DNA of 38,954 nucleotides from Nanobdellota archaeon (GTDB taxonomy: Archaea; Nanobdellota; Nanobdellia; Woesearchaeales; JAHJEM01): positions 1 to 38,954 of the forward strand of contig JAHJEM010000067.1 of assembly GCA_018825425.1 (NCBI GenBank). The letters are read 5' to 3'. Positions 33,479 through 38,954 of this stretch are shown here, piece by piece. The stretch's first letter is position 1. Every line of letters starts with the position of its first letter. Both the position numbers and the translations under genes were made by a program. The notes below the pieces were generated by a model. The model saw only the letters and a program-made list of their open reading frames with translations. It ran no database searches and was not told the origin of the DNA.

Positions 33479-34028
33479 GTCTATCTTGAATAAATCGATC
33501 ATGATAAGGCACGGAAGCGGTATTAAGAACTGGGATGATATGGATTACTCAGAACTCATTCGATTGATCAGGCAGGAAAAAGATCTTGAGCTAGACCTAG
33601 CGTGTCTTAAATCAATTAATTTTGATATACTTCGGAATCTAGAGCCTGAATTAGTGATATGTTCGCCTATGACGCGTACCTTGGAAACTGCAAAATTCAT
33701 TGCAAAAGAATTGGGTTTGGAATATCAGATAGATAATAGTCTTCAGGAAATTCACTTTGAAGATTTACCTAAGAGCAAATATGAAAATGGGCCAAAGCAA
33801 ATGATAGATTATCTATTTGAAAAATCATTGCTTCACAAAAATACCTTTGATTGTAAGAAAGTACAAGGCAATGTAATAATTGTTACCCATAGTTTTCTTA
33901 TGCGCCTGATTTACGCTGATCTTTTCAACGTTGATGTCTCGACCCTGAAAGATGATTTGAGATTTAAGACATATTTAGCAGGATTTGCATTGGGTGATGG
34001 CAAAGGTGTGTTTTTGAGAAAAAAATAA
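33450..34028 (+). CDS. Histidine phosphatase (phosphoglycerate-mutase-like) family protein
   Basis: IMIRHGSG (RHG), SPMTRTLETAKFIAKELG, NVIIVTHSFLMRLI; overlaps the dikinase-like gene by 29 nt. Confidence 0.87.
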   Translation: MAMSQSITNKSILNKSIMIRHGSGIKNWDDMDYSELIRLIRQEKDLELDLACLKSINFDILRNLEPELVICSPMTRTLETAKFIAKELGLEYQIDNSLQEIHFEDLPKSKYENGPKQMIDYLFEKSLLHKNTFDCKKVQGNVIIVTHSFLMRLIYADLFNVDVSTLKDDLRFKTYLAGFALGDGKGVFLRKK

Positions 34029-34044
34029 CCAAAACTTGACCTTA

Positions 34045-34674
34045 TTAAAATTTTAATACGTCCATAACATTCCCTAAATCCTTCTCCTCTATAACAAATA
34101 TAGTATCTGTCCAGCAGCTCATGGTTTCAACTATATTGATCTCCTTATCACCAAACAAGCTATATAGATAGGCCATGACTCCTGGCACATTTTCCAAATC
34201 AGCAGAACTTTTTACTGTGACTTCAATGAGGTTCTCATTTATTCGTATTATCTTGTTCTTGAAGGTTTGCTTTACTCTGCCTAAGAATTCTTGGCTTGTG
34301 ATGACTGTTATGGCATTTACGCCCTCTATTACGCGAAAGAGTTCGTTTTTTGCTTTTACTTCCTTGTTCAGACTCAATAGATTGTTGAAAAATATGTTCT
34401 TTTCAACTACAGCAACAGCTACTTTGTTCTTGATTTCTAGATTTGAATTCTTGAGGATCTGGCGTACCTGATTCTCAGCACCTGGTTTTTTGCGTAGCTT
34501 GTCACCATATCTCCTGCAGGCAATGAGAACTGCATCAAAATGCTTTGCTGGAATCTTGACTTCCTTACATATCTGTCTCGATAGTGCAGAGTAGTTGATT
34601 AACCCAGTTCTCAAGCAATCCTTTGTGCCTTTTGATCCTGAGAGGTATTCCTCAACTGCCCTTTGTATGTTCAT
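34045..34674 (-). CDS. ACT-domain-like regulator, divergent from argGH
   Basis: NLIEVTVKSSADLENVPGVMAYLYSLFGDKEINIVETMSCWTDTIFVIEEKD is ACT-like; start moved to MNIQRAVEEY because a TATA-like TTTAAATA (about 34697-34705) overlaps the 34695 start region. Confidence 0.65.
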   Translation of the reverse strand: MNIQRAVEEYLSGSKGTKDCLRTGLINYSALSRQICKEVKIPAKHFDAVLIACRRYGDKLRKKPGAENQVRQILKNSNLEIKNKVAVAVVEKNIFFNNLLSLNKEVKAKNELFRVIEGVNAITVITSQEFLGRVKQTFKNKIIRINENLIEVTVKSSADLENVPGVMAYLYSLFGDKEINIVETMSCWTDTIFVIEEKDLGNVMDVLKF

Positions 34675-34716
34675 GTGGTATAGCAATGTATCCATGTATT
34701 TAAATGTTTTGTTTCA

Positions 34717-34738
34717 GACATAATTGTATGATTATGTC
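34717..34738. promoter_or_regulatory. Perfect operator-like palindrome GACATAAT-TGTATG-ATTATGTC
   Basis: 8-bp perfect inverted repeat in the divergent intergenic region between the ACT-domain gene and argG. Confidence 0.6.
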
Positions 34739-34793
34739 CTTTTTTAGACGATAATATTTTAAATCAAACCGATTCAACAGGGTTTGAGTTAAA

Positions 34794-34865
34794 ATGAATA
34801 CCTACCAACTATACCTAACAACTGCATCTCTGGTGCAGATTTCTTGTACAGTTAGAAGACGGTAG
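34794..34865 (+). CDS. Putative arginine leader peptide MNTYQLYLTTASLVQISCTVRRR
   Basis: ATG at 34794; AGA-AGA-CGG-TAG at 34854-34865; TATA-like ATAATATTTTAAAT about 34751-34764 would place the TSS just upstream. Confidence 0.6.
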   Translation: MNTYQLYLTTASLVQISCTVRRR

Positions 34866-34936
34866 ATGTAATTCAGTGGCCCACTACTTTTCTTTATGAA
34901 AAAAACAAATTAGTTAAAAATTGAGAGGTAAACAAA

Positions 34937-36199
34937 ATGAAAACACAAAATGAACAAAACAAGAAAAAAATTATCCTCGCGTACAGCGGGGGACTGGATA
35001 CTTCAGTCATATTGAAGTGGATGGTGAACAAAGGATATGATGTCATTGCCTATGTGGCTGATGTTGGACAGCCAGATGATTTTGAGGCAATAAAGAAGAA
35101 GGCTCTCAAGACTGGTGCTAGTAAGGTCTATGTTGAAGACCTTAAACAAGAATTTGTAGAGAAATACATATTTCCTGCAATACAAGCCAATGCCGTGTAC
35201 GAAGGCAGATACTTGCTCGGAACAAGTTTGGCAAGGCCCCTCATTGCCCAGAAGCAGATTGAAATAGCTCACAAAGAAGGAGCTAAGATTGTGTCCCATG
35301 GATCCACTGGAAAAGGAAATGACCAAGTGCGTTTTGAATTGACATATTATGCTATTGATCCAGATATAATTGTATTTGCGCCTTGGAAAGAACAGGAATG
35401 GTTGAATGAATTCAAGGGCCGAACTGATATGCTTGACTATGCAGAGAAGAATGGAATCAATGTTGATCAATCCAAGAAAAAACCTTACAGCGAGGATGCA
35501 AATCTACTTCATATCAGTCATGAAGCGGGAATCCTAGAGGATCCAAAACATCCAGGAGGAGATGAGATACTCAAGTACTGTAAAAGTCTGAAAGATGCAC
35601 CGGATAAGGAGACATTTCTTGAAATCCATTTCAAAGATGGCATTCCGGTTAAGGTTGTCAATACTGCAGACAAGGTCACTAAGACAGAACCATTAGAATT
35701 GTTTACATACATGAACGAACTTGGTTGCGAGAATGGAATTGGTGTTGTTGACATGGTTGAGAATCGTTTTGTTGGTCTGAAAAGCCGTGGAATATATGAG
35801 ACTCCAGGAGCAACTATATTATATGCGGCTCATCAAGACATTGAAGGCATTGCAATGGATCGTGAGGTCATGAGGTTACGTGATATGCTCAGCCCTAAAT
35901 TCGCAGAGATCGTTTACTATGGCTTCTGGTTTTCACCAGAGATGGACTTCATGATGAGTGCAATTCAGAAAAGCCAGGAGATGATTGACGGAATCGTTTA
36001 CTTGTCCTTGTACAAGGGAAATGTAAAGATCCTTGGAAGGGAGAGCCCAAGTAGTCTGTATGACCAAGACCTTGCAAGCATGGACATAGAAGGTGGTTTT
36101 AATCAAAAGGATTCCGAAGGATTCATAAAGATTAATGCAGTACGTCTGAAAGCAAATAAGGCAATCCTAGATAAACACGGGAAAAAATATTTTGATTGA
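34937..36199 (+). CDS. argG: Argininosuccinate synthase
   Basis: [52 protein letters not shown]. Confidence 0.96.
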
Positions 36200-36241
36200 A
36201 TTTTATTTTTTTTTTAAGAATAAGGTAAATTGGAGGACAAA

Positions 36242-37429
36242 ATGAAGCTTTGGGAAAAGGATTTTAATCCTAACTCGGAAATTGAAGATTTTACTGTCGG
36301 AGAAGACTACTTGCTAGATCAAAAGCTAATCAAGTATGATGTTATGGTCAACCTTGCACATGCAAAAATGCTTGGCAAGATTGGAATTCTAAAAGTAGAA
36401 GAGGTCGATAAGATATTGAAGGTGCTCGATGAAATCAAAAGTCTGGATGAGAAAGGAGAATTCAAGATATCAAAACAGCAAGAGGATGTTCATACTGCAA
36501 TCGAAGAATTCCTAATAGAGAAACTCGGTGATCTCGGTAAAAAAATTCATACAGCAAGATCACGTAATGATCAGGTCATGACAGATATCCTGCTCTATTG
36601 CAAGGATGAGCTCAAGCAATCAAATCAAACCATCAACCAACTCATCACATTGCTGAAAGCGTTTTGCAAAGAGCACACAGGCATTCCTATGCCTGGCTAC
36701 ACACACATGCAAAAAGCAATGCCCTATTCTGTTGACAAATGGATGGGTGCATTTATTGAAATGCTCAATGATGATTTGAATGCTATAGACTTTGCACAGA
36801 CCGCAATCGACAAGTGTCCTTTAGGAAGCGCCGCTGGATATGGTGTCCCAGAAAATACTATCAAACTTGATATAAAGATGACATCAGACCTACTTGGTTT
36901 TGCGAAACCATTTGATAATCCGTTATACGTTCAGAACAGCCGTGGGAAATACGAGCAAATTGTCCTTTTTGCTCTAAACCAAGCCATGATGACTATGAAC
37001 AAGCTTGCAACAGACTTATTGTTATTCACAACAAGCGAATTTAACTTTTTTTCTCTGCCAGATGAACTATGTACAGGTAGTTCAATCATGCCCCAGAAGA
37101 AAAACTATGACGTACTTGAGCTTGTCAAGGGAAAGACAAAACTTGTTCAGGCCAAGATGAATGAAATATCTTTGCTCTCTTCAAATCTGCCATCTGGATA
37201 CAACCGTGACATGCAGTTGGCAAAAGAGCCGCTAATTCAAGGAATCGATATTTCAAAATCAGTGCTAAAGATCATGATACTTTCGATCAAAAATCTCAAG
37301 CCAAACAAGACAAGCCTAGAAAAAGCCATGACATCTGAACTCTACGCCACAGAAAAAGCCCTGAAACTGGTCAAGAAAGGTATGCCTTTTCGTGAGGCCT
37401 ATAAGGCGGTTTCTAAAGATTTGAAGTGA
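36242..37429 (+). CDS. argH: Argininosuccinate lyase
   Basis: HTARSRNDQVMTD, GYTHMQKAMPYS, GSSIMPQKKNYDVLELVKGK; ATG at 36242 with SD GGAGG. Confidence 0.95.
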   Translation: MKLWEKDFNPNSEIEDFTVGEDYLLDQKLIKYDVMVNLAHAKMLGKIGILKVEEVDKILKVLDEIKSLDEKGEFKISKQQEDVHTAIEEFLIEKLGDLGKKIHTARSRNDQVMTDILLYCKDELKQSNQTINQLITLLKAFCKEHTGIPMPGYTHMQKAMPYSVDKWMGAFIEMLNDDLNAIDFAQTAIDKCPLGSAAGYGVPENTIKLDIKMTSDLLGFAKPFDNPLYVQNSRGKYEQIVLFALNQAMMTMNKLATDLLLFTTSEFNFFSLPDELCTGSSIMPQKKNYDVLELVKGKTKLVQAKMNEISLLSSNLPSGYNRDMQLAKEPLIQGIDISKSVLKIMILSIKNLKPNKTSLEKAMTSELYATEKALKLVKKGMPFREAYKAVSKDLK

Positions 37430-37443
37430 TTGCTTGATTCCAT

Positions 37444-37460
37444 AAAATATTCCATATTTT
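37444..37460 (+). terminator. Short perfect hairpin AAAATAT-TCC-ATATTTT after argH
   Basis: 7-bp perfect inverted repeat 15 nt past the argH stop. Confidence 0.3.
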
Positions 37461-37521
37461 GGGCATTAAAATGCAATATGGCGTCTCAAACCTCTGAAAT
37501 CTGCTGTCTCAGCCCCTCTAG

Positions 37522-38954
<1,433 letters not shown>

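Follow-up and report, generated by a model that had tools for sequence, protein, structure and literature searches.

The argGH genes of a woesearchaeal archaeon (Nanobdellota) are likely to be preceded by an arginine-responsive leader-peptide attenuator. Cells of this organism probably sense arginine shortage by means of a stalling ribosome, since twelve related archaea have leaders arranged in this way. The DNA analysed, referred to here as the window, is a stretch of 38,954 nt (contig JAHJEM010000067.1). Here a conserved operator and its TATA box are followed by a 23-codon upstream ORF (uORF) as the first reading frame and then by argGH (Table 1). An earlier note on this DNA had described a 23-codon ORF opening at 34794, ending in Arg-Arg-Arg and lying about 70 nt before argG. 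These features are confirmed: AGA AGA CGG is followed directly by TAG (34863-34865), and 71 nt separate this stop codon from the argG ATG (34937). Similarly, the identities of argG and argH are established by NCBIfam scores above the curated cut-offs, and the TATA-like element, previously placed at about 34751-34764, is located at the 3' part of that interval. Transcription of argGH would start about 25 nt past the TATA element, i.e. 4-10 nt 5' of the uORF ATG. A search of positions 34000-37700 with the Rfam covariance models returned no family at E <= 1.

Table 1. Features of the argGH leader region and its surroundings in the window (stop codons are omitted from the peptide).
Feature	Position	Strand	Evidence
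Divergent gene for an ACT-domain protein (NYSALSR in its N-terminal region), putative regulator at the operator	34045-34695	-	ACT_7 E 1.4e-5, just below cut-off
Operator TGTTTTGTTTCAGACATAATTGTATGATTATGTCCTTTTTTAGACGATA	34705-34753	+	0 mismatches to order-wide pattern; found at argG and further arg genes across the order
TATA-like element TTTTAAAT	34757-34764	+	Sequence; same place after the operator in relatives
Leader-peptide ORF MNTYQLYLTTASLVQISCTVRRR	34794-34865	+	Counterparts in 12 other leaders
Putative sensing codons AGA AGA CGG (Arg-Arg-Arg), adjoining TAG	34854-34862	+	Conserved Arg tail; Arg by frame 32/0/2
TTCAGTGG, variant of the TTCATTG motif (TTCAGTG in the window)	34872-34879	+	Four relatives have TTCATTG 4-6 nt past the uORF stop
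T-run TTTTCTTT (T4CT3), candidate hairpin-less archaeal terminator/attenuation site	34888-34895	+	Recurrence in relatives
argG Shine-Dalgarno site GAGAGGT	34923-34929	+	Site in 13/13 leader-type vs 4/41 leaderless genes
argG, argininosuccinate synthase	34937-36199	+	TIGR00032 483 bits; NF001770 548 bits
argH, argininosuccinate lyase (listed start TTG)	36230-37429	+	TIGR00838 329 bits

Searches for argG covered 362 genomes of the order to which the window belongs as well as a sample drawn from the whole class, and the upstream regions were read (genomes, contigs and loci are denoted G, C and L below). The class-wide search yielded few further argG-bearing genomes, and a search of named relatives only one distant bacterial argG. 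A recurrent layout was found in relatives, consisting of a divergent ACT-domain gene, a conserved operator of about 50 bp that ends at the TATA box, and argG. With a threshold of 11 bits, a 50-nt weight matrix built from 26 argG sites detected 52 sites in the collected loci (1.15 Mb) and none in the reversed sequence; matches to the operator pattern across the order were also clearly above the reversed control. A divergent ORF resembling an ACT-domain protein is present at 38 of 72 operator sites, and in the window the palindromic operator and the divergent NYSALSR protein look like an uncharacterised arginine regulator. In most operator genes the coding ATG follows the operator by about 27-39 nt without a Shine-Dalgarno (SD) site, and most of their mRNAs are thus probably leaderless.

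Operator sites also occur 5' of argH (G053), argF (G142), an amino acid kinase gene (G165), an amino acid kinase/NAT-domain gene (G241) and LysW-led operons (G142, G147). In addition, an unassigned family of about 250 residues with the motif EAGHIYTN (L237, L240, L243, L244, L251, L253) stands at operator sites of G194, G199, G048, G255, G322 and G351; its member in G199 gave no Pfam match. On the opposite strand, the ACT-domain regulator is preceded by a conserved ORF of about 35-50 codons (L..YFDI......IL..F; L041, L059, L061, L023).

At a minority of operator sites, the ATG in the usual gene-start place opens a short ORF instead, with the main gene further on. Twelve such operator-TATA promoters of the same order, besides that of the window, start with an Arg-tailed short ORF, eight of them in argG operons and four before other genes. 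Conservation of the ORF and its Arg codons had been predicted before any relative was seen, and clustered Arg codons do end 13 leaders, window included. The peptides of the argG operons are ...SCTVRRR (window), ...SCLTRRQ (G014), MKIAIIITVCRRK (G046), ...LRYRRG (G147), ...SRFRRC (G146), MEKQRMERRRSLRARF (G329), MKAKTLPKDMELFLRRR (G259), MKMSLKFRDSRTKYR (G144) and MKTKSGTCAFYIRSRR (G141). An order-wide operator search added MKNIDIMQFTRTRRSF (G197), ...IISIIRRQ (G199), ...FLVIRR (G194) and MAIRENNMVSRRPSSRRE (G140). These four stand before genes of unassigned role, which encode a radical SAM protein, two proteins of the 250-residue family and a membrane protein. The tails of the 12 relatives read RRQ, RRK, RYRRG, RFRRC, FLRRR, RSRR, RRRSLRARF, RTKYR, SRRPSSRRE, IIRRQ, VIRR and RTRRSF up to the stop codon. 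Downstream genes belong to the arginine pathway in the window (argG, argH) and in the eight relatives with argG operons.

An automatic scan listed 21 distinct first uORFs of at least eight codons at operator-linked promoters, a leader preceded by two sites being counted once; the leader of G046 is not among them because its operator is too weak. Two or more Arg within the last six codons were found in 12 of the 21, compared with 6.75% of 9321 short control ORFs (binomial P 1.5e-9, a value made somewhat optimistic by kinship among the leaders), and with 3.7% in shuffled leaders; the other nine have no Arg tail. Pooled over the 13 ORFs, the final 18 nt hold 32 Arg codons in the coding frame and 0 and 2 in the other two frames. 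The tails draw on both the AGR and the CGN boxes (AGA, AGG, CGG, CGA, CGC). This frame bias, together with the mixed codons, points to arginine, and not the nucleotides, as the target of selection.

Three other explanations of the tails can be weighed against these figures. A purine-rich nucleotide signal (AGAAGG-like), for example a ribosome- or protein-binding site that reads as Arg by chance, would fit the 26 of 32 tail Arg codons that are AGA or AGG, as well as AGAAGACGGTAG, which the window and G259 share exactly. However, G329 uses CGC CGT CGT, CGG and CGA, G144 spreads its AGG codons by the frame, the distance of the tail start from the stop varies and the other frames are nearly devoid of Arg, all of which makes such a signal extremely unlikely. 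It is also very unlikely that the uORF is a by-product of the leader, with chance Arg tails and with regulation by the operator and ACT-domain regulator only. The operator alone is indeed widespread, and 43 of 74 operator sites have no uORF at all, but chance would then have to account for the tail and frame statistics above and for the T-run (P 3e-6) and SD contrast (P 2e-9) described below. Judged by conservation, the window uORF is more than a chance feature, and a leader with sensing codons is well supported by the sequence comparisons.

The third explanation concerns what is sensed. The fungal arginine attenuator peptide, encoded by the arg-2/CPA1 uORF, is a conserved arrest peptide that acts in high arginine, and arrest peptides depend on their own sequence. 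The fungal system resembles the present one in having an arginine-responsive uORF upstream of an arginine-pathway gene (the response here being presumed), and a nascent peptide that sensed free arginine and stalled the ribosome in times of plenty would likewise repress argG. In contrast to the fungal case, a conserved arrest-peptide sequence was not found here: outside the Arg tail the peptides are mostly unrelated among the 13, apart from ISC shared by the window and G014. The conserved part is the Arg codons, as sensing of tRNA charge predicts. This suggests starvation sensing, and arginine-induced arrest has accordingly little probability, even though arginine would be the metabolite sensed and the uORF does lie 5' of arg genes.

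Downstream of the uORF stop, a run of four to eight T occurs within 7-27 nt in 12 of the 13 leaders. The run reaches at least four T in each of the nine argG-operon leaders (control 24.5%, P 3e-6) and six or more in four of these (P 4e-4). Among the four leaders found later (G197, G199, G194, G140), three carry T4, T5 or T7, and G194 has TTT only; the run is modest in the window (T4CT3) and likewise in G329. The end of the T-run lies 26-46 nt from the first tail Arg codon in all 13 leaders. Further, the motif TTCATTG stands 4-6 nt past the stop in four of the nine argG-operon leaders (control 0.3%; P 1e-8, or 1e-6 with a one-genus pair counted once) and is absent from the later four; with the variant TTCA(T/G)TG, it precedes the T-run in five leaders (window, L002, L023, L041, L057). 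The main gene has an SD site in all 13 leader-type cases, compared with 4 of 41 genes that directly follow the operator (Fisher P 2e-9). The uORF ATG occupies the place where leaderless genes start, and the main gene has its own ribosome site where the uORF took over that start.

The earlier note had also read two hairpins followed by a T-rich stretch as a terminator-like arrangement. The first, CTGCATC-TCT-GGTGCAG, does exist as a 7-bp stem (34822-34838). The second, AGTGG-C-CCACT, would need a 1-nt loop as written, and at most 4 bp with a 3-nt loop can form. The terminator arrangement itself is not upheld: the window leader folds no better than its shuffles (z -0.47), for which reason the hairpin part of that observation carries no weight alone, and z lies between -0.8 and +1.4 in 11 of the 13 leaders. 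Among the 13, weak hairpins differ from case to case, and no stable or recurrent pair of alternative terminator/antiterminator hairpins precedes the T-run. A hairpin terminator with an antiterminator is thus not supported. By run length, the T-run is instead a candidate archaeal U-tract terminator (at least four U, with no hairpin needed) in 12 of the 13 leaders.

The same sensing codons could also serve translational control, in which a stalled ribosome alters folding or the local supply of ribosomes and opens the argG SD site without premature termination. The SD sites at all main genes would suit this, TACTTTTC (34885-34892) of the window can pair with GAGAGGTA around the SD, and mycobacterial leaderless uORFs with the sensed Cys residues at their end provide a precedent (PMC4633059). 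Nevertheless, the folding of the window leader is like that of shuffles and 11 of the 13 leaders lie near z 0, the SD-sequestering helix was considered in the window only, and translational control would not account for a T-run that recurs at an almost constant distance. Such control is therefore unlikely.

The leader is not fixed among close argG relatives, since two of the closest (L021, L022; 80%) are without it and a third (L020; argG 81%) has only MRNMIVVG as uORF, with no Arg tail. Placed on the argG tree, the leader changes state eight times, at least six of them forced by well-supported branches; the nine argG leaders are therefore not one inherited copy. Within the genus of the window, no second copy with an upstream region was found, G001 having no argG match and the contig G000:C110 starting inside argG. 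This 2.5-kb contig of the same assembly holds a second argG fragment (L016), 79% identical to the first, and probably derives from another strain or species.

A search of the 362 genomes independent of the operator (RR-x-stop, TTCATTG and T-run) recovered the argG leaders of G014, G146, G147 and G259 again and no other convincing leader among the hits read. Nearly all other hits checked lack a short ATG-started ORF; one (L282) is the end of a long gene and a candidate in G262 is antisense to a gene. A reading frame for MTLRRYMKNAM 5' of LysW in G147 runs into the following gene and was not counted. In G147, G146 and G145 (L023, L041, L093), a protein of about 47-50 residues (MIIQDIDKDMVQIL..., MILKNKPDKDMAITL..., MKTEDLDLDLLKIL...) is encoded between the operator or leader and argG. 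The argG upstream region of G247 (L038) has no Arg uORF and contains two long hairpins, AGCAAAGGACA/TGTCCTTTGCT and TAGGAAAAGACAT/ATGTCTTTTCCTA, possibly representing another kind of attenuator.

The arginine-attenuator reading of the earlier note is thus supported by conservation in relatives, while its stalling and termination steps remain conditional. The attenuator proposed here builds on the conserved position, Arg tail, reading frame, T-run and SD site and on a gene for the termination factor FttA/aCPSF1, which is encoded in the genome of the window (853 bits). Together with archaeal-type promoters and gene content, FttA marks the order as archaeal. Transcription in archaea terminates at U-tracts (four U or more) that need no hairpin and are bound by this factor, although the leaders carry shorter tracts than the paired ones for which binding is best in M. 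maripaludis (PMC8716108). The FttA terminator takes up about 36 nt of the RNA that trails the polymerase, and it has been proposed that FttA and a coupled ribosome exclude each other (PMC11616081). In the proposed sequence of events, the argGH transcript would start a few nucleotides before 34794 and a ribosome would initiate on the uORF as on a leaderless mRNA. With plentiful charged Arg-tRNA, it would pass AGA AGA CGG, terminate at TAG and depart, leaving the RNA behind the polymerase free, so that termination could occur at the bare U-tract about 25 nt further on, by FttA/aCPSF1 or intrinsically. Under arginine shortage, the ribosome would stall on the Arg codons, 26-46 nt behind the end of the U-tract and close to the polymerase, and would exclude FttA or otherwise stop the polymerase from terminating. 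The argGH genes would then be transcribed, giving a response whose expected sign is induction by shortage, and the read-through RNA would be translated from the SD site of argG itself. Of the conserved parts, only the TTCATTG motif has no role in this model, which is the simplest to include all the others. We lean slightly towards its full form: a hairpin-free archaeal attenuator in which a leaderless uORF tests the charge of Arg-tRNA and arginine operons are expressed according to how a stalled ribosome and FttA compete at a bare U-tract, in at least seven families of one order, with several gains or losses.

Leader-peptide attenuation of amino acid genes is a textbook bacterial mechanism. 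The bacterial trp, his, ilv and leu attenuators also combine a short leader ORF rich in the codons of their own pathway with a termination signal before the operon (PMC1262725, PMC4046918). Here, in contrast, promoter and polymerase are archaeal, the uORF is nearly leaderless, the Arg codons adjoin the stop and a U-tract takes the place of terminator and antiterminator hairpins; as modelled, the archaeal leader works like its bacterial counterparts minus one defining feature of the classical system, the alternative hairpins. The nearest described arrangement is that of the leaderless, Cys-tailed uORFs in front of mycobacterial cys genes (PMC4633059, PMC1262725). These uORFs likewise stand at the extreme 5' end, carry the sensed residue at the C-terminus near the stop, lack a conserved hairpin and are suggested to involve factor-dependent termination. 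They differ in being bacterial, in sensing cysteine and in the suggested use of Rho, compared with arginine, a U-tract and probably FttA in the archaeal leaders. Archaeal U-tract/FttA terminators share the U4 to U8 tract without an upstream hairpin; they have been described at transcript ends and inside operons (PMC8716108, PMC11616081), and their gating by a leader peptide was not found in the open-access literature. Similarly, full-text searches of open-access literature, which leaves out most subscription journals, found no archaeal leader-peptide attenuator; an older paper may have been missed.

If the model is true, archaea use the coupling of transcription and translation for gene control, and these leaders would allow the proposal that ribosome and FttA exclude each other to be tested in a natural system. 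It would also mean that an attenuator can be reduced to a uORF and a U-tract and is then invisible to searches based on RNA structure. The signature, an Arg-tailed first uORF followed by a T-run and an SD site, lends itself to searches in further archaea and, in adapted form, to other amino acids.
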